64,000 nt of DNA from an uncultured Opitutia bacterium (GCA_937136395.1 CAKZOI010000046.1:62001-126000), one strand, 5' to 3'; counted from the stretch's first letter, positions 16,888 through 49,440 are shown. Made by a program: numbers and translations. The notes: generated by a model from the letters alone, not told the origin.

Positions 16888-18216
16888 TCACTCACTCACC
16901 AGCATAGGTGTTTCTTTCACCCATTGATCAATAAGGTTAGAAAGTTTGTTCACTTTTGCAGAATTGTTTGATGCTAAATTCACGCGATCATCTGCATCAT
17001 TTTCAAGGTTAAATAATTCCTTTCGCGTTCGCCACATGGTTAACTTGTCCCACCCATCAATCACGACCCACGCTTTCAATCCGTGCTTTAGGTCATCTAA
17101 TTGACTAAGGTCCGAGTCGTGATCATATACATCCACAAAAACACGATTCCGCTTTTTCAATTGGTCTGGGTCGCGTAGGTCGAGTCCCTGCATTACAGCT
17201 GGTGGCTCAATTCCACATATACGTAAAATCGTTGGTGCCACATCAATATTACTCGCTAGTGTTTCACGGTCACGTATCGGCTTAATAGATGGTTCATGCG
17301 TGATGAAAATGGGTGTCCGTATGCCGCCTTCTGTGGGTTCACGTTTCGAACGGACTGAACGATTCGTTTTCTTCGGATTCTGCACCCAGCCGTTGTCACA
17401 GGTAAACACAAAGATGGTATTCTCGTAGAGCCCTTTCTCTTTCAAATGCTGCATAATTTGCCCACAGCCCTCATCGAACCACTCAACATTCGCCCAATAG
17501 CGAGCAGTTGGTTCGTCGGGTGCAATGTCCATATATTTTTTTAATAGACGATTTGGCGCGTTGTGCGGGAAATGGGGTAGGTAGACTCCATACCACATAA
17601 AGAACGGTTTTCCTTGGGACTGTGCTTTGTCGACGAAGTCATAAAATGGCTGCATTGTAGTGCGGCCAATCTCTAGGCCTTTATCACCATGCCGCCCCCC
17701 TCGACGCGCATCGCCGTGAGTCATCGCATCGGTAAACCCATGATCCAAAGGGTTCTCCTCCCACCATTTACCAGTTTGAAGGGTTAGATAACCATTGTCA
17801 CGGAGCGCCTCTATAAATGTGACACACTCCGAGAAAGGAGCCGTCATCAGACTACGCATACGGGCAAATTCTTCTTTATTCTTAAACTTATGCGTGCCCT
17901 TTGGCATCACTGGATCATTGCCTCGAATGCCGGTTTCATGTGGATACAAACCAGTTGCTAGGCTTGCCAATGACGGACGACAAAGCGGCGCCGTGACATA
18001 GCCGCGCTCATACAGCATGCCTTCCCCTGCAAGCTTATCTAAATGGGGAGTCTTTATATGCTCATGCCCCATAAATCCGTAGTCATTCCACCCCTGATCG
18101 TCGCTCAAGATAAAGACTACATTGGGCCGATCCACGGCGGACACTATACTGGCAATAAATAGCCCGGCCAACAACAGGACATTTAAACGAAATTTCTTTC
18201 TCATATGTTTATTCAT
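16888..18216 (-). CDS. secreted sulfatase with non-canonical CRPSL maturation motif
   Basis: 442 residues, N-terminal membrane-type signal to about residue 27. NVVFILSDDQGWNDYGFMGH gives the first metal site. The expected formylglycine motif is PLCRPSLASLATG (Cys79), with Leu83 where Arg is normally required. GKWWEENPLDHGF replaces the common GKWHLG. FTCDNGWVQNPKK supplies the second metal Asp and Asn. The C-terminus is shorter than in many S1 sulfatases. The sulfatase at 42922 carries the same CRPSL variant, so this is a subgroup trait rather than a random mutation. Activity and maturation route are uncertain. Confidence 0.8.
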   Translation of the reverse strand: MNKHMRKKFRLNVLLLAGLFIASIVSAVDRPNVVFILSDDQGWNDYGFMGHEHIKTPHLDKLAGEGMLYERGYVTAPLCRPSLASLATGLYPHETGIRGNDPVMPKGTHKFKNKEEFARMRSLMTAPFSECVTFIEALRDNGYLTLQTGKWWEENPLDHGFTDAMTHGDARRGGRHGDKGLEIGRTTMQPFYDFVDKAQSQGKPFFMWYGVYLPHFPHNAPNRLLKKYMDIAPDEPTARYWANVEWFDEGCGQIMQHLKEKGLYENTIFVFTCDNGWVQNPKKTNRSVRSKREPTEGGIRTPIFITHEPSIKPIRDRETLASNIDVAPTILRICGIEPPAVMQGLDLRDPDQLKKRNRVFVDVYDHDSDLSQLDDLKHGLKAWVVIDGWDKLTMWRTRKELFNLENDADDRVNLASNNSAKVNKLSNLIDQWVKETPMLVSE

Positions 18217-25249: not shown

Positions 25250-27016
25250 TTATTCCATGATCACAGTCACGCCATCAGGTGCATCCACTTTCGAATCGAT
25301 CGTGCCATCGGCTTTTCTCTCATGCCGCACCTGGATCGGACCGTGCGGCGTCGGATAGCTTCCTTGAGCCCATTTCAACTTACCCAGTTGCGGCGCAACA
25401 CTTACCTTGGTGAAGCCGGGCTCCAGCGGTGTGATACCGAGAACCGTTTCACTCAAAAATGCAGTAGGTCCACTCGCCCAACCGTGGCAAAGGCTATGAC
25501 GGTATCCAATATAACAATACGCTCCGAAATCGCCATGGATGTCCACTCCACCCTCCGGCACGAGTTCGTCAATCGGCGACGCGCCTTCTGCCCATTCGAG
25601 ATTGAAGTCCTCCCAGAAAGTCGTCGCACCGAGGTCGAGCATAGCTCCCCAATATTCGGAGATAAAGTCCATTGCGGTATCCGCATGTCCACCCTTTGCA
25701 AGGGCTTGAAGCACATAGAATCCATAAAATGTGGAGATACCAGTCGGACCTCCAGTCATGAGCGTATCCTCAGCGGTGAGCTCTGGAGAACGCATCTTGG
25801 CGAGAGCCAATAAAGCCGCGCCAGACTTCGACCCATTGGTATCCGGAACGACGAGGCGGGCTCGATCAGCCGCTTCTGCACAGGTCGCTGCGGTCGCATC
25901 TTCGCCAAGCACCGTCAACATGCGCTCGCTGGCTTCGAGTGTCATCACTAGCAATGCTTGCAGACCTGCGGTCACCCCTTGTTGATTGCTAGAACTAGGC
26001 CAATCGAGAAAACGCTTGCCGTTGATTTGCTCGGTGCCATCGGGACCCACAAGATCGGCTAACTTTAAGGAGAGGCTTTTCAGGTATTCGCGTTGCTCCT
26101 CTAGGTATTCGTGATTTCCGTGATGCATCCACCACTGTTCGTGGATCAGGATCCACCACATCGAGTAAGAGCTGATGTTGTTCATCCATTTACTTGCTGG
26201 AGTGAGATCGCGTATATAATCGAGACTGTCGGGAACGACGTCGTTGTAACCAAACACTGCATTGATGGTAGAGACTTCGGGATGCATGTCGCCCACCCAA
26301 ACAAGGCGATCCCGTTTAATGCCGTCGTAGAGGTATTCCTGCATGTTGAGATGCACCGTATAGGCGCCGACCTGCCAAATTTTGTTGAGGCGCTCGTCGT
26401 CGCACTCGAAGGAACCAATCTGCGGGACATCACGAACTTTCAGAAGTGCACGCACCTCCGACAAGTTAACGGGTAGTTTTGGATCCACATTATCGATACG
26501 GACAAAACGGAAGCCACTAGGACCAATGATTCGCTTACCAAGCCATGGGAGCGTCAGGACCATATCGCGTATCGCATGATCGTTTTTTGCGGTGTGTCCT
26601 TCGCCAACTTCCGACATGGCTTCTGCGACCGATTCTCCTAGGCGCACACGCACTAAAGGAGGCGTCTTACTCCGAGTGCGTGCCGTGTAAATTTCGACAT
26701 CGCCAGCGATTTGCACACCGAAGTCCAGCAGGATCGAACCGCCTGCTTGCGTGTCGGTCGGAGGCAACAACACGCAAGGTTTGTGCACATTCACAAGACT
26801 CGCCTGACCGGTGCCCTTGGCAAGCAGTGTCTCGCCGTTTCGAACACCGTGTTCACTCGTCCATACGATTCGCTTGGCGGAGACATTGAAGGTCGACAAG
26901 GGACTTTTCTCGCCGATCACATTTGCGCAGAGTAAGCCCTGTGTAATCAGCAATAGCGGTAAAGCTAGGCACGTCGTCCGCAAAAGAGAGGACTGCAAAA
27001 AAGACATGGTATGCAT
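25250..27016 (-). CDS. GH78-type alpha-L-rhamnosidase, compact form
   Basis: 588 residues with a signal peptide to about residue 31. A short beta domain (LLDFGVQIAGDVEIY, FRFVRIDNVD) precedes the (alpha/alpha)6 domain. The acid motif is DGIKRDRLVWVGDMHPE (Asp231 to Asp243), a variant of DCPQRDERLGWTGD. The candidate base Glu lies in GATTFWEDFN near residue 455. It ends in the usual C-terminal beta domain (GFTKVSVAPQLGKLKWAQG, TPHGPIQVRHE). It lacks the N-terminal Fn3-like and lectin-like domains of the full-length GH78 proteins nearby. Expected activity is release of alpha-L-rhamnose. The next gene begins 8 bases downstream. Confidence 0.85.
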   Translation of the reverse strand: MHTMSFLQSSLLRTTCLALPLLLITQGLLCANVIGEKSPLSTFNVSAKRIVWTSEHGVRNGETLLAKGTGQASLVNVHKPCVLLPPTDTQAGGSILLDFGVQIAGDVEIYTARTRSKTPPLVRVRLGESVAEAMSEVGEGHTAKNDHAIRDMVLTLPWLGKRIIGPSGFRFVRIDNVDPKLPVNLSEVRALLKVRDVPQIGSFECDDERLNKIWQVGAYTVHLNMQEYLYDGIKRDRLVWVGDMHPEVSTINAVFGYNDVVPDSLDYIRDLTPASKWMNNISSYSMWWILIHEQWWMHHGNHEYLEEQREYLKSLSLKLADLVGPDGTEQINGKRFLDWPSSSNQQGVTAGLQALLVMTLEASERMLTVLGEDATAATCAEAADRARLVVPDTNGSKSGAALLALAKMRSPELTAEDTLMTGGPTGISTFYGFYVLQALAKGGHADTAMDFISEYWGAMLDLGATTFWEDFNLEWAEGASPIDELVPEGGVDIHGDFGAYCYIGYRHSLCHGWASGPTAFLSETVLGITPLEPGFTKVSVAPQLGKLKWAQGSYPTPHGPIQVRHERKADGTIDSKVDAPDGVTVIME

Positions 27017-30431: not shown

Positions 30432-33400
30432 TCAAGGCTGCAAGGCTACTTTTTGAATCGCTTTGATTTGAACGGGGCCCGCCAGTCCGGAGGGCTGAAT
30501 AGCGCGGTTTTCGTTTAACTTACGCTTAGAGATCCACTTCGGTTTAAACGTGCGTGGACCTTCACCGGGAAATGCATCTGGATACTGCATTTCTCCAATC
30601 AGTCGATTGCTCCACAGGTTCGTCACATCCACTTTCAGCTCATTTTTTCCAGCTTTCAGGTGTTCGGTCACATCGACTGTGAATGGTGGTTTCCAAAGCA
30701 GTCCCACATCTTGTCCGTTTAACCAGACGCGAGCCATTGGATCCACTTTGCCGAGATCCAATAGGTAACGAAGGCCCTGCTGCCCCACCTGATCTTCGGC
30801 GACTTCAAACGTGGTGCAATAGCCCCCAGTTCCTGAATAATGAACCACCGAAAGTTTTTCATGGTCGGTCCAAAAACCAAGGGTATCGAGTGCAATCGAA
30901 CTGGGCATATCGCGCCCCGGCATAAATTCCAAGGTCCACCCTTTACGACTCAATACCAACGGTTTCGGCATAGGATTTACCTTGAACTGTTCAACCGATT
31001 GATCCGCACGCTTGAGCGCATAGCTTCCCGCTGCTGTAGCATACGCGACCTCGTTTCCATTTTCGGAAACTATCGAAAGGAACTTCGGTCCCTTCACGTC
31101 CACAACTGGATTACTGACTTTCTCGTCGCTCTTTCTAAACACGACAAAGACTGACCCCGCTGGATTCAGTTGCAAGGGCACTTGGATTCCATTTTCCACT
31201 GTCTTGAAGTGTGTCGTCTTTGTGATGCGTCCTGTGTCGGCATACCACAACTCTGGCTCTAATTCTGAGGAAACTCGAAAGATGGGCTCCAGCTCGACGA
31301 CTGTCTTTTTCTGATTCGAAACAAAATAGATGTCAAAATCATCGCTCTGACGATGGGTCCACAATACCGCTTCAGGATCAATATTTGAGACATCGGTTGG
31401 AAGATTGATCGACTGCATCACAGACGCTAGCTCAACGCCTTGAATCACTTTGCCGTTTCCAAACGATTTGACTCCGTTATCGCCTGCTTTCATCCCCTGC
31501 CACATTTCCTTGGCTATCGACTGAACCAACGCATCCGCCTGCTTCGCATCCTGTAGGCTCGGTGAATGCTCCGGTGCTTCGCCGTAAAGAATCCCTCCAG
31601 CAGCCACCAACTCTTTAAACTTATTCAATACTGCGGGGCGCATCGTTTTGAGCGGCGGTAACACCATCACGGCATAACTTTTGCCATCGGGAAGCGTCCA
31701 TCGGCCATTCTCAACCGACATGCGCTCTAACAATACCTGAGCATTAATAAAATCGAAATCATATCCAACCGGCTGCTCGGGCTGACGTGTTCCTGACATA
31801 ATCGGAGCATCTTCTCCAATGAAGTAGGCGAAATCGGCAACGTGCTGGCCCTCTTGTAATAACACATGGCAGCGGCGCAGATAATCGATCCAATCCTTGC
31901 CCTCATAATACCAAGTATTGTGACGATTAAACTCCGTTCCAAACCAAGCATTGATACCGGGCATCTGCTCGTCGGGTTGCTGGATATTCACGTGCAGCAC
32001 AAAATGGTTGATACCTTCTGTGAAAGCCCAATCGCCGCGCGCCTTCATTTTATAAGGAGTTAACTCCCAGTTCTGCCCCGACGTCAGGGCCTCGGCATAC
32101 ACAACCTTTTTCCCATAGGCATGTGCGGTCGATGCCGCCGATCGGCATTCAATGTTGCCGAGAGTGCCAGTGGCCCAGAATTCACCTGCCACCATATCGC
32201 ATGCACCCCCATAACGCATAAACTCTCCTGGAAAGCCCCAGTGGCCATAGTTTTCCAACCAAGTTTTTAGACCATGTTCATTGCTTCGCTCTTTCAACCC
32301 AGCCGCATACACATCCGCCAACTGATCCGCGATCATCCGGCGCAGATCCCAAAGAAAACGATCTGAAGCCTCTGGGCTCTGAACAACACGACCACTGAAA
32401 ACTGGCAGAAACGGCATCGGGTCATAGCCATACTTTGCTTCAAAATCACTTTGTAGGTCGTCAGTCCAATTTTGCGAGCCCTGCTCGTAACTATCGGCAA
32501 CCACGTATTTAAAAGCAGTTTTTTCTTCAGGCGTGAGACGAGTCAACAACTCACCAACAAATGCATCAAAATGCGAATCCAGATGCTCACGGCTCATTTT
32601 GTCGACTTCCAAGCCGCTCGCATTCGGCGCTGCAGGACTGTTCTTCACACCAGTGGGCAGCATCCCGATTCGCTGAATCACCCAGTCTCCCTTAGGAATT
32701 TGGCAGACAAGTCGGCCCTCATCATTCATTCGGTCCGTCAAATCATAGACCTTAGAGGGATCAATAAACGACGACATATCCAAATCAGTTCGAGCAGAGG
32801 GCCATTGGTAGTCCTCCCATTTCGGAGTCGGTCTGGGATACATTTTTCCCAACTGCTTTTCAACGGCATACTCCACACGCGCAGCAGAAAGGATTTCGAT
32901 TTCGGCAAAACCAGTGCCCTCATCACCACGGCTCGTTCTAAAATTTGAAAAGACAATGCGAAAACGATCCGACTTTGTCGGTGGCAGCGAGAGATACAAG
33001 GCTCCATCGACCATGGGACCGGCATTTCTAGCCTTCCTGCGTCGATCATACTTTCCAGTTTGAATCACTTTATATTGACCGTCCACCCATGCGGAGATCG
33101 TCACGTCCGCCATAAAAATCCCGAGATCAGGTTGGAGCGCCACTGCCTGCGCTGTAAATGGCTCACTGAGCTCAAAATCAAGTTGCTGTTTCTTTTGTTT
33201 CTTGCTGATCGCCAAGCTTGCACTGGAACTCAGATCCCCATCGACTAAATGCTGCGCATTCTCAATTTTGGGCAAGCTTCTTACCTTAGGATTGCGTGCA
33301 CTGAACGGCTTGTCGACACGACTCGATACTGGAATCGCCAACACCGCAACATCTTGAAAGTCACCCTCCGGAGCCGGGAGCACCTGATTAAATGAGAGCG

Positions 33401-36819: not shown

Positions 36820-39800
36820 CTAGGGCTGATTCACAGTCAGTCGCACGAATCGTTTGCCTGAACCTTTCGGAAGTGTCGCGCGTCGGTTTTCCAGTTCGCT
36901 GGTGTCGGGGTTTTCTGGGTCTGCGGACTCGGTGACGCCGACACTGCTCCATGATCCAGGAAGTAGTGTATCGCTCCATTGGACGCTGAAGGTGACGCCG
37001 GCGGCCAGAGCCGCCTTGCTGCGGGTGTAGCGGAACTCCAAGGTGCTGCTGTCGACTTCTACGGGTGTCGAGAGCAAGGTGCCGGCATGTGGGTTCTGCC
37101 CAGTGGCAAATTCGAGCAAGTTACTCTCGCCGTCGAAGTTCGCATCGTAGCTGTCGGCTGCCGAGCCGGTGTTCTCGATGGTGCCGAAGTATTCGAACCG
37201 CCACGCTTCTATACCGGACAGAGACAACGGGGCTGTGAATCCCGAGATCGCAAGATTATCCAGGAACAGATGATGTCCCAGACTACCTTCCGCGCCCCCA
37301 TCGAAGGTGATCCTGATGGTTGCCGACTCTCCGGGCTCAAGTGTTCGGTCGGCGAGCTCCACGAAATAAAGATCGACCTGGTCGTGAGTGTCGTTGGTGC
37401 CGGATAGCGTTCCCGCCGCATGGTTGATCTCCTCGGCCGAGGACTCGAACACGCTGCCGGTGGTCATGTCACCACTCAAGACCTCCAGCTCGTAGGCTCT
37501 CGGCGCGTTGGGACGGAAGGCGAGCACATCCATGTGGAAGCCATCGAGATTCCATGAAGTCGGACCGTTGTTGGTGAGAGTCAGAGTCATCTCGGCACTG
37601 GCGACCCCGTTGAGCGCGGTCATGTTCGCACCCGTTCCGGATGTTACCCCGCTCGCAGCGACGCCTCCTCCATCAAAGGATCCCCAGGTGCCGTCGCCGC
37701 TTGAGCCGCGTCCACTGCTGCTGTTGTCCGTTGTGCTCCAGTTCGCGCCGGTAGTCGAAGCTGTCGCCGTCGCCGTGATTCCCACGGCGGTCACGCTCGC
37801 GACCGGGGCTGTGCTGCTGGACCATTGGTCCCAACCAGCGACCACCTGTATTCCGGTCGACGGGTCTCCTACGATGATCGTGCCGTTACCAGAAAAGACG
37901 GCGTTTCCGAGCCCGGAGAGATCGGCTGGGGTATAGATTCCATCGGCAACGGCTTCACCGCCCAGACTCAGGCCGGCAACCGCCCATCGATTAGAGGCCA
38001 CCTTGACTTCTGTCCCAGGGGCATCCGCCACGTTGAGCATAGCATCCTCGTCCCAGTCTCCACGGATCTCCAAGCTGCCCCCCGCGGCGACCTCGATATC
38101 GGCATCGCCCACCGCACCGCCTTGCTCGAAGACGAGCGTGCTTCCCTCCGCCACTTCCCAGGTGCCTGAGAAGGTATTGTTGCCATTCGTGATCGTGATC
38201 GAGCTTAGGCCCTCGGCTGAATTCTCCTTTGCCAGAATCCGGCCGCTTCCTCCGATCCGCGAGGACACCTTGAGGCTTCTCTCAATCGGCCCCCCGCCCG
38301 CACTGCCAAAGGAAAGAAAACGCGTGGTTCCCGAGTTGGTGATGCCCCCTGCAAGCGCATTGGTGATCGACGAACCGGTTCCGGCCGCTAGTTCAGCAAA
38401 GTCCCCTGCTCCGTAGCTGGATCCGCCTTGGAGAATCAAGGAGTCGACCGTCGTCACCTCCCCAGATTCTTCGATCGCCCGGACCTGGAAGCGGCCGCCC
38501 GGCCCCACCGTGAGAGAGAATCCTGGAAAGGTCGAATTGCCGCCCTCGCCGCGCACGTTGCCCGTGTCGGGGATCAGATAATTGAATCCTACGACCGGTG
38601 GCTGGCCGTTTTCCCAGGTGCTGCCGTCGTTCACATTGACCGGGCTGCCGAGCGCGGCGCCAGCCATCGGGATGGTCAGCGCATAGCTGCCGTTCATGAC
38701 ATCCATCACTTGGACCGATGTCAGCGCGCTGCGATAGAGCACGACGTCGTCGATAGAGCCTTCAAAGTGTTCGTTGGGTTTGTTATCGCCATCGCCACCG
38801 ATAAAGAATGGAAGCGGTGCAGTTTCATTATAGTTGATGGTGACTGGACTGCCCTGAGCGACACCATCGACATACCATTGGTAACTGGTGCCGTCTTTGA
38901 CCATGGCGTAGTGGTGCCACTGGTTCGAGGGCAGGTCGCTGTAATTATAATCTTCGATATTGGCAGCAGATCCCGTATCGGCGAATGCTGCCTTGTTTGG
39001 CATAAACTTGATGAACTCCAAGCTTTCGGAGCCAGTGCCACCGTAACGGTTGCCGACCATGATTGAGCCAGAATGTGAGGTCGCTTCCTTCTTCGCCCAC
39101 CACGACCAGGTAAAGTCGTCCGTGTCGGCGAGGGCGTAGCTGAACGCCGTTTCGATGCGGTCGTCGGTGCCGTCGAAGACCACGTAGGATCCACGGGTGG
39201 CATCGCTGCCCCACGACGCACCGTTGAGAAGCGAGGCGTCCGAACCGAAGCCAGAAACGTCAGCCGTCGAATTCCCTGAACCTTCATCCAGCGGCCAGTG
39301 AGCCACCAGACCGGAATCCGGCCCAACGACAATCTCGCCCCTATCATAGCTCAGGGCTTGCTCCAATGAAATCAGTCCACCAGGACCCCTTCCTTCAAAG
39401 AGGTCTCTTTGTTCAATGATGGATAGGGCCGTTGAGAATAGTGTCGGTTCATATTGCGTTCCATCTGGGGATGTTTCAGGAAGCAAGGGGAAATTGTCCG
39501 AGTAGGTAATGATCATGAAGGCGACGTCATCACGACGAATGAAGTCGGTGCTCCCAAGCATCGCGGGGGTCGACAGCCACCTCATGAACTCACGCATTCC
39601 TTGGAATCCACTGTCGCTACCGTTGGTGTTGAAAGGCACCTGAAACTTGAAAAACTTGTCCTTCACTTGGGAATTTCCCAAGGCCCAAAGGAGGTAATCC
39701 TGCCGGCTCCCATTGTTCTCGAACCAAAGCTGCGCTTTGGCTTCGATGGAAACCCCTGCTACGATTGCCTTCTGCGAAAAGGAACGGGAACGCGAGCCAT

Positions 39801-40341
39801 TGTTCCTTACGTTGCTGATGATTTTTACATCCGCCCGACCGTTGTTGTCCAGCCAGTCACGCAACTCCTGCAGGTCGGCATCAGACCACTCCTCCACCGG
39901 CAGGTCGCGATCTTCGCCAGGCTGATTGTCGAAGGGCATCACCCACTTGATCTTGAGGCCCAGCTGGCTTTCCTTCCTGAACTTCACTACCAACGTATCA
40001 GGCAGAGGATCCCGACGATCGCCGCCAAATCCATCATAGGCGAAATGCGTGCGGGGAAACTCGAGGACGGCATTGTTCTTGCCGTTTGGCATACACTGCA
40101 CGATCTCCTTCCACTCGGCCGCGGTGTTTTTTTCGGCGCTGGGTCGCTGGGTGTCTACATTGTTGGTGTTGATCCCTTCGATCTGCTCAGCCACGATATC
40201 CCACTGGTCTTTGAGTGTATCATGGGACCCCTTTGGAATGTAAGGTAAGCCGAACCAGACCTCATATCCAAAACTAGTACTGGCGCAAAAAAGCACCATC
40301 AAAAGTGCCAATCTATGGGTAATCAATTTCCTAAAGCTCAT
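36820..40341 (-). CDS. large secreted LamG-domain protein of unknown function, GC-rich
   Basis: 1173 residues, signal peptide to about residue 25. Residues ~26-335 form a domain I do not recognise (EVWFGLPYIPKGSHDTLKDQW, GLKIKWVMPFDNQPGED). A LamG/concanavalin-like domain follows (LVAHWPLDEGSGN, DDFTWSWWAKKE, WHHYAMVKDGTSYQWYVDG, FEGSIDDVVLYRSALT). Then comes a glycine- and serine-rich, autotransporter-passenger-like stretch (NTFSGTWEVAEGSTLVFEQ) and a beta domain. The end, EAWRFEYFGTIENTGSAADS then DANFDGESNLLEFATGQNP, is a calcium-loop-like module common on secreted Verrucomicrobiota proteins. Base composition is clearly richer in G+C than the neighbours: by hand count 40 of 60 bases at 37681-37740, against 30 of 60 at 41101-41160. 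This suggests a different origin. Confidence 0.72.
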   Translation of the reverse strand: MSFRKLITHRLALLMVLFCASTSFGYEVWFGLPYIPKGSHDTLKDQWDIVAEQIEGINTNNVDTQRPSAEKNTAAEWKEIVQCMPNGKNNAVLEFPRTHFAYDGFGGDRRDPLPDTLVVKFRKESQLGLKIKWVMPFDNQPGEDRDLPVEEWSDADLQELRDWLDNNGRADVKIISNVRNNGSRSRSFSQKAIVAGVSIEAKAQLWFENNGSRQDYLLWALGNSQVKDKFFKFQVPFNTNGSDSGFQGMREFMRWLSTPAMLGSTDFIRRDDVAFMIITYSDNFPLLPETSPDGTQYEPTLFSTALSIIEQRDLFEGRGPGGLISLEQALSYDRGEIVVGPDSGLVAHWPLDEGSGNSTADVSGFGSDASLLNGASWGSDATRGSYVVFDGTDDRIETAFSYALADTDDFTWSWWAKKEATSHSGSIMVGNRYGGTGSESLEFIKFMPNKAAFADTGSAANIEDYNYSDLPSNQWHHYAMVKDGTSYQWYVDGVAQGSPVTINYNETAPLPFFIGGDGDNKPNEHFEGSIDDVVLYRSALTSVQVMDVMNGSYALTIPMAGAALGSPVNVNDGSTWENGQPPVVGFNYLIPDTGNVRGEGGNSTFPGFSLTVGPGGRFQVRAIEESGEVTTVDSLILQGGSSYGAGDFAELAAGTGSSITNALAGGITNSGTTRFLSFGSAGGGPIERSLKVSSRIGGSGRILAKENSAEGLSSITITNGNNTFSGTWEVAEGSTLVFEQGGAVGDADIEVAAGGSLEIRGDWDEDAMLNVADAPGTEVKVASNRWAVAGLSLGGEAVADGIYTPADLSGLGNAVFSGNGTIIVGDPSTGIQVVAGWDQWSSSTAPVASVTAVGITATATASTTGANWSTTDNSSSGRGSSGDGTWGSFDGGGVAASGVTSGTGANMTALNGVASAEMTLTLTNNGPTSWNLDGFHMDVLAFRPNAPRAYELEVLSGDMTTGSVFESSAEEINHAAGTLSGTNDTHDQVDLYFVELADRTLEPGESATIRITFDGGAEGSLGHHLFLDNLAISGFTAPLSLSGIEAWRFEYFGTIENTGSAADSYDANFDGESNLLEFATGQNPHAGTLLSTPVEVDSSTLEFRYTRSKAALAAGVTFSVQWSDTLLPGSWSSVGVTESADPENPDTSELENRRATLPKGSGKRFVRLTVNQP

Positions 40342-40371: not shown

Positions 40372-42750
40372 CTACCTGGTCGCCGAAACCGTCCACGCCC
40401 CAGGAGAAACATTAAACTTAATATACTTATTATCTTCACCGTTCCAAGTAATGCCCGGAACATTTCCAATAAAGGCTCCATTACTCCATACTTTCATACC
40501 GTTCACCTCAATCGTCTTTGGAGAAATCGACGCCTTTGGAATGCCGACCACTGCCGTGGTGCCTTGCGGGGAATCCAAACGAATGCCATAGGCTTTATCC
40601 GTCCGCTCGATTTCAACTGTAATATCGCCCTGCACGCTGGGGATCACCTGCTTTAGCGATGTGAAATGCGCTAAGTTTGGCAGAATCTGATATTCACGCC
40701 AGCCTGGTTTGCTTGGAGCAATGCCAACGATATGCTTAGCGAGAATCGTGTTTGGCGCATTCCAAGCGTGATTATACGACCCTCCGCTAGGGAACTTTTC
40801 ATAGAGTGTGCTAAGGCTCTTACGATCCACCTGACTTTGGTAGCGTTCCTTCATACGCTTGAGCGCCGCGTCGTAACGCCCCGCATAACACATAGCATCT
40901 TCAACCATCCACTCAAAATGCGGACTGCAAAAATGATTCGGAATCAATACGTTTTCAACGATCGCAGCATGCTTATCATCTCTGGCTAGACCACTGAGAA
41001 TAGCCAGCGCATTGGCGCGGTCGTCCTGAAATTTTGTAGCATTGCTGCTGTAATAGTTACCGGTCCAGTATTTGTCATTAAACCCTTTTTGAATGGCATA
41101 GATCCGTTGGTCATACCACGCAAGGTCTTGTTTTTCGCCAAGCTCCAGCGCCATTTTCTTCGCGCTATTAAGCGCCATGAAGTAAAGCGCATCGAGCACC
41201 ACATTCTGATCAATCGTATCCTTGACTCCCCAATCGCTCCAGTTCCATGAATCCATAGAACGTTTATTGCGCTTGGGTAAACCATCCTTACCAATGGTCC
41301 AAAGATTTAAGTATTTACGGATATATGGATAGGCGTATCGAAGCGTTTCCTCATCACCCGTGTTAATGTAATATTGCCAAACTCCTTGATCAACAAACTG
41401 AAGACTTTGGCTGGGCAACTCACGCAAGCGCAATGGCCCTAGCGCGGCATAAACACCTTCATAACTGAAAGCCATGGTCATTCGAATGGCTTTCTTTAGT
41501 AACTGCCTGCCAGACTCATCCATGCAATAAAACAGGTAACTAGCCTGATCTGCCACATCGCCGATCCAAAGTGCCCGTTCCCGATCTGGGCAATCCATAA
41601 AATTATCACGGGCACAGACAAACAGAGTATTGCGCCCCATCCACCAGAGCCGTTCGTAGAACGGATCATTCGATTCAAAAGAACTTGCATTAATATCCCC
41701 CACACTCATCCAGCGATACTTTAGCCCCAATACTTTCACACCGGCGGGGATGTCATATTTAATGGTGTGCCCACTCATCCATGAAAAACTCTCGAAGGAC
41801 TGCTTGCCTTGCTTAGTCGTATAGTAAGCGTTGATCTGATTGAGACGATTATCGGTCGTGACTGCAATCTCTACACCCGCATCGGACTCCACCATTAGGT
41901 AGGGAGTGATTTGTTTATTAAACGGTAATTGGCAGACGATGGTTTCCCCCTTACTGATAAAGGGAAATTTTGCGGCAGGATAATTTTCGTAATCCTTTAG
42001 TCCATGGTTCATTAGCGCAGGCACATAGTTTTTCTCTAAATTATACCACGGCGCCGCAGGTGGATTACCTTTTTCTGTCGCAGCTTTCCAAGCTGCATCA
42101 GAAAAGTCAGGAGAGGTCCAATCACCCATTTCATTTCGCGCATCATACCGAACGCTGAATTGAACAATATTTTTTCCTGCGTCACAACCATCGATCGCAT
42201 ACGCTGGATCCGCCTTCACCTTCCAGCTACTATCTGAAATTAACTTTTCCCCATTGAGATCTGCTTGAAAAAGAAACCCTCCCTTACCGCTATCGATATG
42301 CGTCCCTTTGTGAGTCTCTTTGCCCCAATACCATGCGAGCACAGCAATCGTATTTTCGCCGGGCTTGAGGTAAGGAGCGATGTCCACCGCTTCATACCAT
42401 GTGTTTGAAGGCTTTCTCTCAGGCGGGAGATCCCACATCTCTTTGATTCGTTTCCAAGGTTTTGCTGGACTAGACCCTCGCGCGACGCTGCCTTCAAAGA
42501 CTACCAGGTCTCTATTGATCCACATCCAATACTTACTGTCTGCAGAAATATTCGCGATTACCGTTTCAGGCACCTTATCGACCTTTATCTCTTTGCGAAA
42601 TGCCACCCACGCGTTGTCAGGGCCGTCTTCAGCCTGCCAGATCCACTGCGCCTGCCAGTCGAGCAAAGGTTCAGCTGCCGCAGAGTGACTTAGCATCAAT
42701 ACGCATGATACGATCCACAGGATTTTCTTAAATAGATTAGATAACTTCAT
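40372..42750 (-). CDS. secreted GH78-like alpha-L-rhamnosidase (paralogue A)
   Basis: 792 residues, signal peptide to SAAA (about 26). It starts directly with a galactose-binding-like domain (WQAQWIWQAEDGPDNAWVAF, KYWMWINRDLVVFEG, YLKPGENTIAVLAWYWG) instead of the Fn3-like domain of longer GH78 enzymes. The catalytic acid motif is DCPDRERALWIGD (386-398). The base candidate is in STLYEKFPSGGSYNHAWNAP. The C-terminal beta domain ends WNGEDNKYIKFNVSPGAWTVSATR. The protein is very close over its whole length to the product at 51746-54115 and more distant from that at 57491-59863, so the three form an in-cluster family. Confidence 0.88.
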   Translation of the reverse strand: MKLSNLFKKILWIVSCVLMLSHSAAAEPLLDWQAQWIWQAEDGPDNAWVAFRKEIKVDKVPETVIANISADSKYWMWINRDLVVFEGSVARGSSPAKPWKRIKEMWDLPPERKPSNTWYEAVDIAPYLKPGENTIAVLAWYWGKETHKGTHIDSGKGGFLFQADLNGEKLISDSSWKVKADPAYAIDGCDAGKNIVQFSVRYDARNEMGDWTSPDFSDAAWKAATEKGNPPAAPWYNLEKNYVPALMNHGLKDYENYPAAKFPFISKGETIVCQLPFNKQITPYLMVESDAGVEIAVTTDNRLNQINAYYTTKQGKQSFESFSWMSGHTIKYDIPAGVKVLGLKYRWMSVGDINASSFESNDPFYERLWWMGRNTLFVCARDNFMDCPDRERALWIGDVADQASYLFYCMDESGRQLLKKAIRMTMAFSYEGVYAALGPLRLRELPSQSLQFVDQGVWQYYINTGDEETLRYAYPYIRKYLNLWTIGKDGLPKRNKRSMDSWNWSDWGVKDTIDQNVVLDALYFMALNSAKKMALELGEKQDLAWYDQRIYAIQKGFNDKYWTGNYYSSNATKFQDDRANALAILSGLARDDKHAAIVENVLIPNHFCSPHFEWMVEDAMCYAGRYDAALKRMKERYQSQVDRKSLSTLYEKFPSGGSYNHAWNAPNTILAKHIVGIAPSKPGWREYQILPNLAHFTSLKQVIPSVQGDITVEIERTDKAYGIRLDSPQGTTAVVGIPKASISPKTIEVNGMKVWSNGAFIGNVPGITWNGEDNKYIKFNVSPGAWTVSATR

Positions 42751-42921: not shown

Positions 42922-45732
42922 CTAGGGAGTTGCACCGCCGAAGACATCAATTTCAGAATAACCGACGGCGTTGTTCTCCTGGCCACTCGGCCAGTCGAAG
43001 CGGATCGCAGCAATCCCCGAGGCACCGATGCCGGTAATACTCATCTTGCCCTGAGTCTGGGAGGGCGGATTGTAAACCTCGTTGGTAACGACCGCTTGGT
43101 TGAAGACGGTGGGGCTACCGACAAGGGACATTGTGATGGTGACTTTGATTTCGTCGCGTCCGTCACCCGTTCCCCAGTTCGAGTAAAGGTCGATCTGGTC
43201 GATGTCGTAGCCCGTTGGACTGGCGGTCAGATCGAGGAAATACTCTGCGAACTCATCGTTCTGGACCATGGCGGAACCCCGGCTATTGGCTTGATTATTG
43301 AACCACACGCCGTCTCGGAGTGAGGCTTCACCACTTGGGGTCAATCCTTGCAAGTAAGTTGTGTCCGTTCCACCGGGGGCGTTATCCAAGTCTGAGCCAT
43401 TGTGTGAACTGAAGGCAGTCTGTAGCAGGTCGGAATTCGAGACGGTGAAGCTCGCAGCTTCGGAGTTCGTGACTGTGAGGACGGCGGGAGGAGGCGTATT
43501 GACCGTAAAAGGCTCGCCAATAGAGGAAATTCCAAAGCGATAGAACTTCTTATCTGAGAGCATACTATCTGTCATGGCGACAAGACCGTCTAGGTTGCTA
43601 TCACTAGCGACTTCAACCCAGCCGACACTAAGATCTGTCGAAGCCTCAATCAAGACAGGCTGGTCTTTAACACCAAGATCCGCAGATATGATGACGTCTT
43701 CGCCGTCGCAAGTGATTTGGGCATTGGTTGCATGTCCATAATTGCCATAGAGTATCTGGAAAGGTAGATCGAAATTAGCACTACTCCAGTTGAGTCCATC
43801 GATCAGCCCCGAGTAGTACATCGCGCCTCCAGCGTAGCCTCCGGTGCTATTGTAGGCCATATCAAAGCCGTTGTTGGGCTGAGCGCTGCTTTTTACCAGG
43901 AAGCCAAGTTGCTGTCCACTGGTGACTGAAACGGGCGTTCCGAATTGAAAAAGGCTCCAATAGAAGCCCGCTTGATAGACGGGGTCTGGGCGTATCGTCG
44001 AACTAGCGAGCAGCGCGCCGAGTGGTGCGCCATTTCCATCGAGTTGACGAAGTTCCACAGTGATCGATTCAGCAGGAGCAGTGTGTTCGAACGGAAGGTT
44101 GATACCAGTCAAGAAGCCGTCCCTGGTAATCGTAATGGACTGGCCAATAGAATTGGGAATAGCGATCGAATTACTAGCCTGGGTTTGTGAGAACTCGGTA
44201 GACCAGACCATGTCTTTCGGATCATTGTACCAAGTGTTGAGCAGGTTCGACAATTCGGCAACCTTGGACGGGTTCGATCTTGACAGGTCATTGGTTTCGA
44301 AAGGATCGACTGGGTCTCCCGTCGCTGTATTATAGAGATGAAAGAGATCAGGGGAACTAGGAGAGCCATAACGAGAGCCACTCGGATATTCGAGCAGTTT
44401 CCAACCATCCTTTACAACAAAGGTTGCCTCCAAAGTTTCCTCAGGATTCTCGAGGCTGGCCATGTCATGAGCGTAGACATCGCAGAAGATGGCATCGCGT
44501 GCGTAAACCGCATCAAGATCCATCAAATTGACCCCTTGCTGTTCGAGCGTAGGCTTGAGATTAACGGCCGCCAGAGCGGTTGGCACCATATCAATCACGC
44601 TCACAGGTTGAGTAATGATTTGTGGTTCAATTTCGCCACCTGGCTTGATTTTGCTCGGCCAATGGACGATAATTGGAGTCCGCGTACCGGCATCTGCGGG
44701 ATTTCTTTTTGCCTCCCCGGTCCGCGCACCATTGTCTTTCCTGGTGATCCAGCCATTGTCACAAATGAAAATGATCATCGTGTTGTCGGCAATGCCTGCG
44801 GCATCGAGATGATCTAAAATCGCTTCCAGACCTCCGTCCAAGCGCTCGATGTTGGCATAATATTTGGCGGTCCAGTCGCGGTCCTCGTAAGGGCTATCAT
44901 CGACCAGAGGGTCATATTTGGCCTTTAATGCTGGCGGTGGATCAAAAGGGTTGTGCGGTAGGAAGGGTGCATACCAGACGAAGAAGGGATCGTCGTTAGC
45001 GACGCAATCATCAATGAAATCCGTAAGCGGTACGATGGTGTTGGCGTAGTTGATTCTCTTTTGATTCGCAGCATCCCAGTGCTCCGGACGTTGGATATCG
45101 TTCACGTAGTCCACACGGCCGATCATCAAGCCCCAGTCGCCATGTCGACCCTGATTGGCATAACTTGGTCGGCTTCCAGTGTACTGTGAAGGCCCCGTTC
45201 CAGAGGAGACGGTGTTGACTGTGTCGCCCTCTGTGAATCCGCCGAGTGAGTGATGCCCGCCCCACCATTTTCCAGTTTGGTAGGCTCGGTAACCATGCCT
45301 CTTGACTAAGGTCCGAGCGATTGACTGAGTCATGAGGATCTGCTCATCGGCTGGAGTGTCATTCGATGTGCCGGAAATATTGTTGCCGCTTACTTTATTC
45401 TGATGCGGAAACATCCCCGTGATCATCGCTTGAAGCGAGGGGCGGCAGAGGGGAACCGTGTAGCCATGAGTGAAAGTGAGTCCTTCATCGGCCAATTGAT
45501 CAATCGTGGGCGTTTGCGCTACCTGTTGAATCTCATAGTTGTTTGGAATGGCGTTATCGAAAGCAGGCCCTTCCACGTCGTTACGATACATAAAACTATA
45601 GTCCCACCAAGCTTGGTCATCCGCTAGGATGAAAATGATATTGGGCTGATTGTTGGACGTGGCTTGCAGCAGTGAAGTGGCCGAAAGAAGAACCGAGAGG
45701 GCTAGTAAATAGGGGCTAAGTCTAAGATACAT
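42922..45732 (-). CDS. multidomain secreted sulfatase with CRPSL motif and C-terminal lectin-like domains
   Basis: About 936 residues from ATG at 45732, which begins a good signal peptide (MYLRLSPYLLALSVLLSATS); ATG at 45774 would add 14 residues. Sulfatase domain to about residue 520: NIIFILADDQAWWDYSF, formylglycine motif VPLCRPSLQAMITG with Leu in the Arg position, TGKWWGGHHSLGGF, ICDNGWITRKDNG. A middle beta domain (~530-680) with SITITRDGFLTGINLPFEHT follows. The last ~170 residues (EAASFTVSNSDLLQTAFSSH, SNWGTGDGRDEIKVTITMSL, VGYSEIDVFGG) are homologous to the PEP-CTERM protein encoded immediately upstream, but without the PEP anchor. A substrate-targeting role for that domain is inferred. 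Confidence 0.85.
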   Translation of the reverse strand: MYLRLSPYLLALSVLLSATSLLQATSNNQPNIIFILADDQAWWDYSFMYRNDVEGPAFDNAIPNNYEIQQVAQTPTIDQLADEGLTFTHGYTVPLCRPSLQAMITGMFPHQNKVSGNNISGTSNDTPADEQILMTQSIARTLVKRHGYRAYQTGKWWGGHHSLGGFTEGDTVNTVSSGTGPSQYTGSRPSYANQGRHGDWGLMIGRVDYVNDIQRPEHWDAANQKRINYANTIVPLTDFIDDCVANDDPFFVWYAPFLPHNPFDPPPALKAKYDPLVDDSPYEDRDWTAKYYANIERLDGGLEAILDHLDAAGIADNTMIIFICDNGWITRKDNGARTGEAKRNPADAGTRTPIIVHWPSKIKPGGEIEPQIITQPVSVIDMVPTALAAVNLKPTLEQQGVNLMDLDAVYARDAIFCDVYAHDMASLENPEETLEATFVVKDGWKLLEYPSGSRYGSPSSPDLFHLYNTATGDPVDPFETNDLSRSNPSKVAELSNLLNTWYNDPKDMVWSTEFSQTQASNSIAIPNSIGQSITITRDGFLTGINLPFEHTAPAESITVELRQLDGNGAPLGALLASSTIRPDPVYQAGFYWSLFQFGTPVSVTSGQQLGFLVKSSAQPNNGFDMAYNSTGGYAGGAMYYSGLIDGLNWSSANFDLPFQILYGNYGHATNAQITCDGEDVIISADLGVKDQPVLIEASTDLSVGWVEVASDSNLDGLVAMTDSMLSDKKFYRFGISSIGEPFTVNTPPPAVLTVTNSEAASFTVSNSDLLQTAFSSHNGSDLDNAPGGTDTTYLQGLTPSGEASLRDGVWFNNQANSRGSAMVQNDEFAEYFLDLTASPTGYDIDQIDLYSNWGTGDGRDEIKVTITMSLVGSPTVFNQAVVTNEVYNPPSQTQGKMSITGIGASGIAAIRFDWPSGQENNAVGYSEIDVFGGATP

Positions 45733-45803
45733 TAGGGTAAATGCTGTTAACGGCGAGCGATAACCTATCGCCATCGTAGTTAGGGTTTAGTTTATTAGGG
45801 CTT

Positions 45804-45837
45804 AAAAAAAGCCCCGCACCAGCTTAGGGTGCGGGGC
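45804..45837 (-). terminator. rho-independent terminator of the PEP-CTERM gene
   Basis: Perfect 10-bp stem GCCCCGCACC (45811-45820) and GGTGCGGGGC (45828-45837) with a 7-base loop, followed on the minus strand by seven T (45804-45810). It lies 39 bases after the stop of the PEP-CTERM gene and before the sulfatase start, so it separates these two homologous-domain genes into different transcripts. Confidence 0.9.
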
Positions 45838-45875
45838 GTGAAATGGTCAAACGACACCCATGGGTGCGTTTAAAA

Positions 45876-46646
45876 CTAGCGGCGACGCGTTACAATTGCT
45901 CCGAAAGCCAATAGGCCTGCAAGCAACGCGAATGTGCTTGGCTCAGGAATTGCACTAGCAGTTCCAAATACATCCAGCTCGGAGTAGCCGACAGCACCGT
46001 TTTCCTGTGTGAGCCATTCAAATTGAATGGCTGCAACATTGGTAGTCGTGATTCCAGCAACGCGCAACAAGCCTTGAGTTCCGTCCACGTCTCCAGTGCT
46101 TATTGGGTTATAAATTTCGCCTATTAGGACGACTTGATCAAAAACAGTCGGCGTGCCGATGAGTGCAAGACTGATGGTAACATTGATTTCGTTACGGCCA
46201 TCACCACTGCCCCAGTTACTGTAAAGATCAACACCTGTGATATCATAGCCATTCGTGTTGGTGGAGACATCAAAATTGAATACGGCAGTTTCATTGCTTT
46301 GCACCAACGCAGAGCCACGGCTTTCAGCAGAAGCCTTGCCGATTTGAGTAAAGTCACCAGTGGTACTACCCCAGCCCGCTGCATCATTATTATACCAAGT
46401 TCCATCGCGAAGCGATGCTTCACCAGTAGTAACTCCTTGGCCAGCTAGCTGAGTTAAGTAAAGAGTATCATTGGCATTGGTACCTTCACTCAAGGAATCG
46501 CCACCGTATGAGGCAAACTGGGTTTGAAGCAGGTCAGTGTTCGACACCGTAAAGCTTGCCGCAGTGAAAGTATCCACTGTAATTTGCGCCTGGGCAGCCG
46601 TCATCGTTGCGGCCGCGGCCATTAGCGTTATAATGTGTTTTTTCAT
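45876..46646 (-). CDS. PEP-CTERM-anchored secreted protein with the sulfatase-associated lectin-like domain
   Basis: About 256 residues from ATG at 46646 (MKKHIITLMAAAATMTAAQA signal peptide); an upstream in-frame ATG at 46679 would spoil the signal. The body (FTAASFTVSNTDLLQTQF, GEASLRDGTWYNND, DLYSNWGSGDGRNEINVTIS, AVGYSELDVFG) is one beta-rich domain, clearly homologous to the C-terminus of the adjacent sulfatase. The C-terminus IPEPSTFALLAGLLAFGAIV followed by TRRR is a classic PEP-CTERM exosortase sorting signal. Likely a surface-displayed carbohydrate-binding protein. No exosortase is visible in the window. It is flanked by a terminator and by a divergent two-component system. Confidence 0.85.
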   Translation of the reverse strand: MKKHIITLMAAAATMTAAQAQITVDTFTAASFTVSNTDLLQTQFASYGGDSLSEGTNANDTLYLTQLAGQGVTTGEASLRDGTWYNNDAAGWGSTTGDFTQIGKASAESRGSALVQSNETAVFNFDVSTNTNGYDITGVDLYSNWGSGDGRNEINVTISLALIGTPTVFDQVVLIGEIYNPISTGDVDGTQGLLRVAGITTTNVAAIQFEWLTQENGAVGYSELDVFGTASAIPEPSTFALLAGLLAFGAIVTRRR

Positions 46647-46802
46647 ATTTTCATGCGTTATTGATTGGGGGCTATACATATATTGAAATAATTATAAATC
46701 CCCCCATAGATTAGAGGCAATTGAGCTATAACAACGGAGTACCATTTGATAATTAATGTCTTCATAAATATAACTCATTGTGCACCTATAGGCAACTACG
46801 CG

Positions 46803-46858: not shown

Positions 46859-48793
46859 ATGAGAACGTTTCTACCATTCAGTGTCACCGTCGTAACATGT
46901 CTATGTTTCCTGTTATTGCAGGTGAATCTTTATGCCGAGAGTTTGGAGTCTTTTGACACGCGAATCCATGAGATCGAAGAAAAGCTGAAGCATTTACCAA
47001 TTCGAGAGCCCGGTGAATCGGGAGGGAATGCAGGATTGTTAGTCGTTCATTACAAAGAATCAGAGCCCATCCTTCACTCTGTCACAATTGACTTAGAGGA
47101 GGTTTATCCGATTGATCAGATTGCGCTGGTTCCTACGCGCTTAGAGGACATAGAAAGGCAGATGGAGGCTGTGGGCTTTCCCATTCGTTTTGAACTTATT
47201 GGGTCAACAACGGCCGATTTTTCGGCTCCTGTTTCTTTTTACAATGGGGCAGATGAAAATTACCCAGACCCCAATGGGTATCCAGTTATTTTTAATGCGG
47301 GTGCCCTCAAAGCCCGTTACATTCGTCTCGTCGTGTATGACATGCCAACGATTCGACGCTTTCGTGCGTTTTCCTTAGCTGAATTTTTTGTCTTTTCAGG
47401 GGGCAGAAATGTAGCCCTGCAGAAGACAGTGGATGCCCCCACCTCACAAGCATTAGATGCTATTTTCGACAAGGCCTATCTGGTGGATGGTCAAACTTCA
47501 ATGGGGCAGCCTGTCGCGCACAACGGACCACGACCATCATGGCGCGGATGGCACGCCGATGTTCAAAGCCATGCGATGTGCGATGAAACCGTGGAACTAC
47601 AATTTGAACATTCGCATGTGATAGAAGAAGTACGCCTCTATCCGGTTTATCACAGCCTTTGGCCTAAAAATGTAGATTATGGATTCCCAATCCGCTTTCG
47701 ACTTCAGATCAAGCAAGCGCATTCAGAATGGATAACCGTGGAAGACTGGTCGAAAGAGCTATTCCCTAGACCAGGCAATAGCCCTGTCTCCTTTTCACTT
47801 GGAGGGCGCCCAGCCGATGCCGTGCGCCTTCAGGCACTAACCATACCCAATAGCGCTTTTCGAAGATACACTTTTGCTTTAGCTGAGATGGAAGTTTACG
47901 CGAATGGAGTCAATATTGCACCGACAGGTGAAGTCATTTCGTCGTCTCTGTATAGGCCTGCTCAAGCCGATTGGGATGAGCGGGCGCTAACCGATGGCTT
48001 TGCTACCCGTGGGAAAATCATGCCATTATTGACTTGGCTTAAAGGCTTAGCAAAGAGAGGGACGCTTGAGGCTGAACTGGCTTCGCTGATCGAGGCGCGG
48101 TCAATTTCACAAGCTAGGCTCACACAACAACTCAGAACGACCGTCATCGTATTATTTGCCGCACTCCTACTTGCTGGCTGCATGATGCTTTACAACCGGG
48201 GTAAACAAAAAAAATATCAGCAACAGCTTCAAAGCCAAATTGCTTCTGACTTACACGATGAGGTGGGCAGTAATTTAGCGAGCATTACCATATTAGCTTC
48301 TGCCGCGAAGGATCAATGCGAGCCTAATTCTTCACTAGCAAAGAGCCTGCAAAGAACAGTCGATATCTCTAAGGAAACCGCCTCCTCAATGCGTGACATT
48401 ATATGGGTACTTCATCCTAATCGCAAAAATAAGCTTAGCTTAACTACAAGGTTACAGGATATAACGGCGAGTTTACTAGCCGACATTGATTACACTTTGG
48501 CTAAATCCGAAAACATCTTAGTCAATCAACTTTCCATGAATACATTACATCATTTTCTACTATTTTATAAGGAAGCTCTGCACAACTTGACAAAGCATAG
48601 TAAAGCGAGCGAAGTAGATATTATTCTAAGTTCACACAAGAGAACCATACGATTAGTGATCATTGATAACGGCATACCCCTACCCTCTGGATCTCTTCCT
48701 AAAGGACTCAGATTGCGCGCACAAAAAATACCCGCGCTTCTGAGTTATCAGAGAGACGCCGAAGAAAACCGATTGAGCCTAGAAATTACATGA
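46859..48793 (+). CDS. sensor histidine kinase with two discoidin-like extracytoplasmic sensor domains
   Basis: 644 residues. N-terminal signal or membrane segment (1-25). Two tandem beta domains of F5/8-type (discoidin-like) fold are suggested at ~50-180 (LHSVTIDLEEVYPIDQIALV, ARYIRLVVYD) and ~185-350 (VALQKTVDAP, LVDGQTS, VRLYPVYHS). A membrane helix lies at 427-444. The HisKA_3 dimerisation helix has His466 in SDLHDEVGSNLASI. The ATPase part has the N-box KEALHNLTKHSKASEV and DNG at 603-605; the glycine-rich G2 region is reduced to PKGLRLRAQ. The sensing part resembles carbohydrate-binding modules, so an oligosaccharide ligand is inferred. The gene overlaps the response regulator by ATGA. 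Confidence 0.88.
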   Translation: MRTFLPFSVTVVTCLCFLLLQVNLYAESLESFDTRIHEIEEKLKHLPIREPGESGGNAGLLVVHYKESEPILHSVTIDLEEVYPIDQIALVPTRLEDIERQMEAVGFPIRFELIGSTTADFSAPVSFYNGADENYPDPNGYPVIFNAGALKARYIRLVVYDMPTIRRFRAFSLAEFFVFSGGRNVALQKTVDAPTSQALDAIFDKAYLVDGQTSMGQPVAHNGPRPSWRGWHADVQSHAMCDETVELQFEHSHVIEEVRLYPVYHSLWPKNVDYGFPIRFRLQIKQAHSEWITVEDWSKELFPRPGNSPVSFSLGGRPADAVRLQALTIPNSAFRRYTFALAEMEVYANGVNIAPTGEVISSSLYRPAQADWDERALTDGFATRGKIMPLLTWLKGLAKRGTLEAELASLIEARSISQARLTQQLRTTVIVLFAALLLAGCMMLYNRGKQKKYQQQLQSQIASDLHDEVGSNLASITILASAAKDQCEPNSSLAKSLQRTVDISKETASSMRDIIWVLHPNRKNKLSLTTRLQDITASLLADIDYTLAKSENILVNQLSMNTLHHFLLFYKEALHNLTKHSKASEVDIILSSHKRTIRLVIIDNGIPLPSGSLPKGLRLRAQKIPALLSYQRDAEENRLSLEIT

Positions 48794-49440
48794 GCACCGA
48801 ACCGCTATCCGTGTGGCTAATTGAAGACCACCAAAATTATCGAGATATTGTTGCTGCAGCACTCCGTGCGCGAAGTGAAATCAAAACCCTACTCGATTTT
48901 AAAAATGCCGAAAGCGCACTCAAGCGGCTCAAACGCATGCCATCCTCTATGCCCGATGTCATACTACTAGACCTGGGCTTACCTGGCATTTCTGGACTAG
49001 AGGCCATTCCTCTGTTCAAACAGTATCTTCCAGAAACCGACATCATCGTGCTCACCGCATTTGATAATAAACCAAAAGTATTTGAAGCGATCGCAGCCGG
49101 AGTCTCTGGGTACCTACTCAAATCATCCACTCCAAACGAAATCACAAAAGCGGTCATGGAAGTCCGCAATGGAGGATCGCCACTCACACCGCAGATTGCC
49201 CGTCATGTAATTACTGCATTCTCCGCAACACGAACTAAAAAGCTGGCGACGGATTTAACGCCACGCGAAAAAGAAATTCTGGCTTACTTAGCGGATGGTC
49301 TCGCCAAAAAACAAGTGGCTGATAAATTAAACATCAGCCCCCACACAGTTGATTATCACGTCCGAAAAATTTACGGTAAACTCCATGTCAACAACCTCTC
49401 TGGTGCGATCACAAAAGCAGTCAAAGACGGCCTCGTTTAG
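48790..49440 (+). CDS. NarL/FixJ-family response regulator
   Basis: 216 residues. The receiver domain has acidic residues Glu12-Asp13 (VWLIEDHQNY), phospho-acceptor Asp61 (VILLDLGLPGISG), Thr89 (IVLTAF) and Lys111 (GYLLKSS). The C-terminal LuxR-type helix-turn-helix spans ~150-216 (LTPREKEILAYLADGLAKKQ, then ISPHTVDYHVRKIYGKLHV). Its ATG overlaps the kinase stop (ATGA), so the two are co-translated. The pair is embedded between GH78/GH106 operons on the opposite strand and probably controls them. Confidence 0.93.
   Translation: MSTEPLSVWLIEDHQNYRDIVAAALRARSEIKTLLDFKNAESALKRLKRMPSSMPDVILLDLGLPGISGLEAIPLFKQYLPETDIIVLTAFDNKPKVFEAIAAGVSGYLLKSSTPNEITKAVMEVRNGGSPLTPQIARHVITAFSATRTKKLATDLTPREKEILAYLADGLAKKQVADKLNISPHTVDYHVRKIYGKLHVNNLSGAITKAVKDGLV

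Follow-up and report, generated by a model that had tools for sequence, protein, structure and literature searches.

Organization of the locus

The DNA described here is a stretch of 64,000 nucleotides from an uncultured Opitutia bacterium (GCA_937136395.1 CAKZOI010000046.1:62001-126000), which as a whole is referred to as the window and along the full length of which all positions are counted. Its minus strand encodes, in the order of transcription, a small secreted PEP-CTERM protein (45876..46646), followed by an intrinsic terminator, a sulfatase (42922..45774), a GH78-type alpha-L-rhamnosidase adjoining the sulfatase (40372..42750) and, last, a LamG protein (36820-40341). On the plus strand, domain scans identify a sensor histidine kinase (46859..48793), divergent from the PEP-CTERM gene, and a LuxR-type response regulator (48790..49440). 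GH78 and GH106 rhamnosidases are located on both sides of the gene pair formed by the PEP-CTERM protein and the sulfatase, the surroundings of which are a rhamnose-degradation cluster. This rhamnosidase-rich setting fits the published consumption of sulfated methyl pentoses by Verrucomicrobiota, which are described as specialists for these sugars and in which rhamnosidases are surrounded by sulfatases (PMC8857213). Alpha-L-rhamnosidases are dense across the window from 25250 to 59863, with GH78-type ORFs at 25250, 27410, 33924, 40372, 51746 and 57491 and GH106 ORFs at 30432, 49480 and 54128.

The small protein had been proposed to be anchored by PEP-CTERM, and its C-terminal sorting signal (IPEPSTFALLAGLLAFGAIVTRRR; 45879..45953, minus strand) is indeed recognized by TIGR02595 with 21.2 bits (cut-off 16), PF07589 giving 19.6 bits, slightly below its cut-off of 20.7. 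With a C-terminal PEP-TM-Arg signal and two exosortase genes (PF09721) in the genome, it is a member of the PEP-CTERM class. Its ORF opens at 46679, and the end coordinate 46646 is an internal Met (MKKHIITLM...), which is the likelier start of the protein. The strong terminator claimed to separate the two genes is real: it consists of a 10-bp stem followed by T7 on the minus strand (45837-45811), with a folding energy of -22.9 kcal/mol and a z-score of -4.5, and lies ~39 bases past the anchor gene and ~37 ahead of the sulfatase ATG. Its position between the genes implies that the sulfatase would be expressed by read-through or from a promoter within the anchor gene, which may let the cell produce more anchor than enzyme. 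No such terminator was found in the related cluster of Haloferula rosea, which also has the genes in swapped order.

The sulfatase is a protein of 950 aa that starts with a likely signal peptide, followed by a sulfatase catalytic domain (PF00884, the domain of S1 formylglycine sulfatases, 136.8 bits, residues 44-405; 44560..45645, minus strand) and by a middle region (43909..44178) with a resemblance to DUF4082 below threshold (14.4 bits, cut-off 28.4). The Cys, DD, DNG and PH motifs appear intact when inspected by eye; the active-site motif reads CRPSL and departs from the S1 signature C/S-x-P/A-x-R, the Cys being kept and the Arg, which 99% of S1 sulfatases retain (PMC5066984), being replaced by Leu. 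The same motif is found in the Haloferula and Rubripirellula counterparts of the enzyme and, within this genome, in 3 of about 30 sulfatases, a second example in the window being located at ~17209-18126. Its recurrence in two other sulfatases of the genome and in the two counterparts makes CRPSL a mark of a subfamily and not a sequencing error. A literature search for CRPSL in connection with sulfatases found no paper.

A module common to the anchor protein and the sulfatase

The sequence-only reading held that the end of the sulfatase and the body of the adjacent PEP-CTERM protein are one and the same module, and a BLASTP comparison of the two ORFs bears this out, with 105 of 213 residues identical (49%, 189 bits, E 8e-59). 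All four motifs quoted for it (TVSNxDLLQT, GEASLRDGxWxNN, LYSNWGxGDGRxEIxVTI and VGYSExDVFG) are present in both copies. The shared stretch, given as ~170 residues, was measured to be slightly longer, at ~188 residues, corresponding to residues 763-950 of the sulfatase (42925..43488, minus strand); the module's last strand is where the sulfatase ends. The anchor-borne copy (45948..46592, minus strand) carries an 18-residue insert following the WxNN motif. A search of the genome returned no further copies beyond these two.

Fold and family of the module

The module has no entry in Pfam or NCBIfam, and the copies in the window match no model there, including PF00754 and PF22633 at the gathering cut-off. 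Relatives were collected from genome collections, 43 of which were aligned; when members were scanned singly against Pfam and NCBIfam, the matches were scattered and at chance level, with one weak F5/8 type C match (1 of 43 members, E 0.0082). No significant match came from searching the PDB by sequence, whether two, six or 43 module sequences were used, and the kinship of the module is therefore drawn from its fold and from profile-profile comparison.

The AlphaFold2 model of the sulfatase-borne copy (mean pLDDT 89.4, pTM 0.89) folds as an all-beta sandwich that also has short helices. Foldseek (best E 2.7e-4) matches it to F5/8 type C domains, CBM32s and fucose-binding modules, 2j7m (a CBM32) and 2j22 (fucose-binding) being among the best. 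The top fold matches are intracellular eukaryotic proteins, VIA-align giving human PP25 (1tvg) a Z of 14.7 with an rmsd of 2.1 Å over 132 aligned residues; many CBM32s and CBM32-bearing enzymes follow at Z 11.8-12.9, and one of the close matches is CBM32-6 of CpGH89 (4a42, Z 12.6). The predicted fold is thus the discoidin jelly-roll beta-sandwich of the F5/8 type C superfamily. For the profile comparison, an F5/8 type C alignment was built from the relatives' genomes, which itself retrieves CBM32, neuropilin and galactose oxidase structures. Aligned with hhalign, the module profile matches it over most of the module length with an E of 4.6e-5 and a score of 35.4, whereas 100 column shuffles never exceed 13.2 and the reversed profile scores 14.4; the profile similarity thus goes beyond what chance produces.

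Taken together, the predicted fold and the profile match place the module as a divergent family of the discoidin superfamily and not as a new fold. The description of the module as new stands in that no Pfam or NCBIfam model covers it, and does not stand in that, by predicted fold and profile, it belongs to the F5/8 type C or galactose-binding-like superfamily, which includes CBM32 and CBM47; it is a new sequence family within a known fold and kind. It resembles F5/8 type C domains (PF00754, CBM32, CBM47) in fold (Z 11.8-14.7), in the order of a DG, a strand and a final E motif in the profile alignment, and in being an appendage of secreted carbohydrate-active enzymes, but differs from them in a sequence that stays under the Pfam cut-off, a longer N-terminal part, a near-invariant Trp105 and a QEN...GYxE loop in several subfamilies. 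Among the 43 members, Glu179 is invariant and Gly60 nearly so. The galactose-binding type of CBM32 has canonical His, aromatic, Arg, Asn and Phe ligand residues (PMC3313936); the alignment of the module with CBM32 through profiles has 12% identity, which is too low for a reliable mapping of such residues.

Distribution and carriers

When the whole PEP-CTERM protein was used as the query in relatives, mostly the sorting signal alone was returned, and for this reason the body alone was used for later searches. At an E of 0.001, the module is found in 25 of 387 Verrucomicrobiota genomes and in 5 of 392 Planctomycetota genomes; it is absent from the two other genomes of the window's genus. Enzymes carrying it include a sulfatase with an N-terminal module, a GH78 rhamnosidase with two copies, and SASA and GDSL esterases. 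These fusions to a sulfatase, GH78 and esterases support the proposal that the module is used both as an enzyme appendage and as a surface protein. A FAD-binding protein with PEP-CTERM and beta-helix, PKD, LamG and PATR proteins also carry it, tandem arrays contain two to five copies, and 10 of the 11 short ORFs that hold the module only terminate in PEP-CTERM. The module is, in other words, mobile across proteins.

Giant proteins in which the module is arrayed in tandem alongside PATR, Ig and PKD repeats could be taken to mean that it serves as a structural stalk or spacer without a ligand, spread through domain shuffling in surface proteins, and CBM32 domains that do not bind are known (PMC3313936). 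We regard this as improbable, since the stand-alone module proteins of ~250 aa have nothing to space, and the Q-E/D-N ... G-Y-x-E loop is repeated in several distant subfamilies and Trp105 retained in 41 of 43 members, although this conservation could itself be structural.

The genes that bear the module are clustered, 16 of 52 lying within 10 kb of another compared with 0.6 expected under random placement, a count that includes the locus in the window and that of Haloferula; when these two query loci are left out, it becomes 11 of 46. Local duplication could be an alternative cause of this clustering.

History of the gene pair

In Haloferula rosea, a member of another family, the same neighbourhood is found, with the module-bearing sulfatase 70%, the PEP-CTERM module protein 45% and the rhamnosidase 79% identical to those in the window; the cluster also holds a 907-residue module-Big5-LamG protein. 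Divergent from the latter, an ECF-type sigma factor and a FecR-LamG protein are encoded (L192:2404-5393), the FecR-LamG protein being another regulator with a sugar-binding-type domain beside the module cluster. The enzyme-borne module is 75% identical to that of Haloferula and ~50% identical to the neighbouring anchor copy, which indicates that the fusion is old and that the neighbourhood was kept in two families. These values also bear on the suggestion that the pair is a local gene duplication giving two proteins without a functional link. The adjacency of the genes and the lack of a further copy in the genome speak for it, but an old fusion in a neighbourhood preserved in two families makes it very unlikely.

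The cluster is kept in part in Rubripirellula obstinata, where a two-component system and a PEP-CTERM module protein are followed by a sulfatase with no module but with a PEP-CTERM of its own. The kinase-regulator pair lies ahead of the PEP-CTERM module gene, and its sensor differs from that in the window. A single open frame (L054:6740-9991) spans a LamG-PEP-CTERM protein and a sulfatase with its own PEP-CTERM, and probably represents a fusion or else two genes that share a frame with no stop between them.

This arrangement is relevant to a different role for the module, that of a protein-protein tether, in which the sulfatase copy would dock either on the PEP-CTERM copy or on a surface partner that both share, and the anchorless enzyme would be kept at the cell. 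The module abuts the PEP-CTERM signal in the stand-alone proteins, the sulfatase in the window stops exactly where such a signal would start, its Rubripirellula counterpart has the signal in place of the module, and the module genes are clustered. There are, however, many tandem-module carriers without a PEP-CTERM partner nearby, and, among domains of solved structure, the nearest relatives found in secreted enzymes bind sugars and are not known to bind one another; a tether is accordingly considered unlikely.

In a tree of the module, the three copies borne by enzymes or multidomain proteins form a clade (support 100/91) nested among the PEP-CTERM copies; this enzyme clade groups with the PEP-CTERM copy of the window at 96/87, the deeper fork being weaker (87/57). 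A relative of the sulfatase from a Haloferula-genus genome (55% identity in the catalytic part) lacks the module and has LamG domains instead. The nesting, the Haloferula and Rubripirellula neighbourhoods and the LamG-bearing sulfatase together suggest the anchor lineage as the source of the sulfatase's module, as well as a putative transfer of the cluster from one family to another; the acquisition most likely preceded the passage of the cluster between the two verrucomicrobial families.

Anchor-enzyme pairs elsewhere

The Haloferula-genus genome with the LamG-bearing sulfatase also encodes a small LamG-PEP-CTERM protein that adjoins a LamG-LamG-SASA esterase (L191:1564-5761), the LamG copies being 75% identical. 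In a genome of the window's genus (L195:5504-10806), a PEP-CTERM protein with an unnamed body adjoins a BD-FAE-type esterase that has the same body (36% over 184 aa). The pairing of an anchor with an enzyme is thus displayed by three unrelated modules. Pairing as a general trait of PEP-CTERM proteins was considered and rejected: among about 46 proteins at 40 loci, the pair in L195 was the one clear case of an anchor beside a large enzyme, with a few small or PEP-PEP paralogue tandems besides, and the rate is a lower bound, as the survey filter missed the LamG pair. The pairing therefore recurs but is uncommon. In its signal peptide, its C-terminal PEP signal with an Arg cluster and the presence of exosortases in the genome, the protein in the window resembles other PEP-CTERM/exosortase surface proteins of Verrucomicrobiota, from which it differs in having a body in common with the neighbouring enzyme, a feature clear in one of the about 46 sampled from relatives. 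A literature search for PEP-CTERM together with discoidin found no paper.

Proposed function

Carbohydrate binding by the module is plausible and likely from its predicted fold and context, and a glycan-binding role would be the most economical reading. In the best explanation, to which we give about even chances, the module is a mobile F5/8 type C beta-sandwich through which anchor and enzyme act on the same sulfated rhamnose polysaccharide. That the two copies are homologous, how the module is predicted to fold, to which proteins it is fused and which genes surround it are results of the analysis, while glycan binding is inferred, because this fold also serves non-sugar ligands and because CBM32-6 of CpGH89 (4a42) is reported to be without a sugar-binding function (PMC3313936). 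Against the explanation as a whole count the adhesin-like PATR and PKD carriers, which have no enzyme part, the intracellular eukaryotic proteins at the head of the fold matches, the rarity of the pairing and the lack of the terminator in the Haloferula cluster. Under the glycan-binding model, both copies would bind a glycan of the sulfated, rhamnose-containing polysaccharide that is degraded by the surrounding cluster. An exosortase would sort the PEP-CTERM protein to the surface of the cell or to its exopolysaccharide, and there the protein would hold the chain; the module of the sulfatase would keep the enzyme on the same chain in the same place. The N-terminal region of the sensor kinase is F5/8 type C-like (PF00754, 26.4 bits, slightly under the cut-off of 28.2), and a ligand of the same kind may therefore be sensed by this kinase.

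A known parallel is CpGH89, on which several related beta-sandwich CBM32 modules are present, some of which bind galactose and some of which do not (PMC3313936); all of these copies are on a single enzyme, whereas in the window a separate anchored protein carries one of the copies. The proposed role of the anchored protein also resembles another system by analogy.

Bacteroidota PULs have the surface glycan-binding proteins SusD and SusE/F. The likeness would lie in having the gene for an anchored binder next to those for degrading enzymes and for a sensor; the anchoring differs from that of the PEP-CTERM protein, and the likeness is one of analogy only. A broader proposal, which is tentative and on the whole doubtful, is that the module is the founder of a new carbohydrate-binding family whose ligands are sulfated rhamnose-rich polysaccharides, and that anchor-enzyme pairs beside a sensor, in which a PEP-CTERM-anchored module is matched by enzymes bearing the same module, are a Verrucomicrobiota and Planctomycetota counterpart of the Bacteroidota surface glycan-binding system.

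The locus draws its interest chiefly from the pairing of anchor and enzyme. Verrucomicrobiota have many PEP-CTERM proteins, and a body shared with an enzyme offers a testable guess at a role, namely the holding of substrate. If the two members of the pair bind the same sulfated methyl-pentose glycan, this would help to explain how enzyme and substrate are retained at the cell (PMC8857213).
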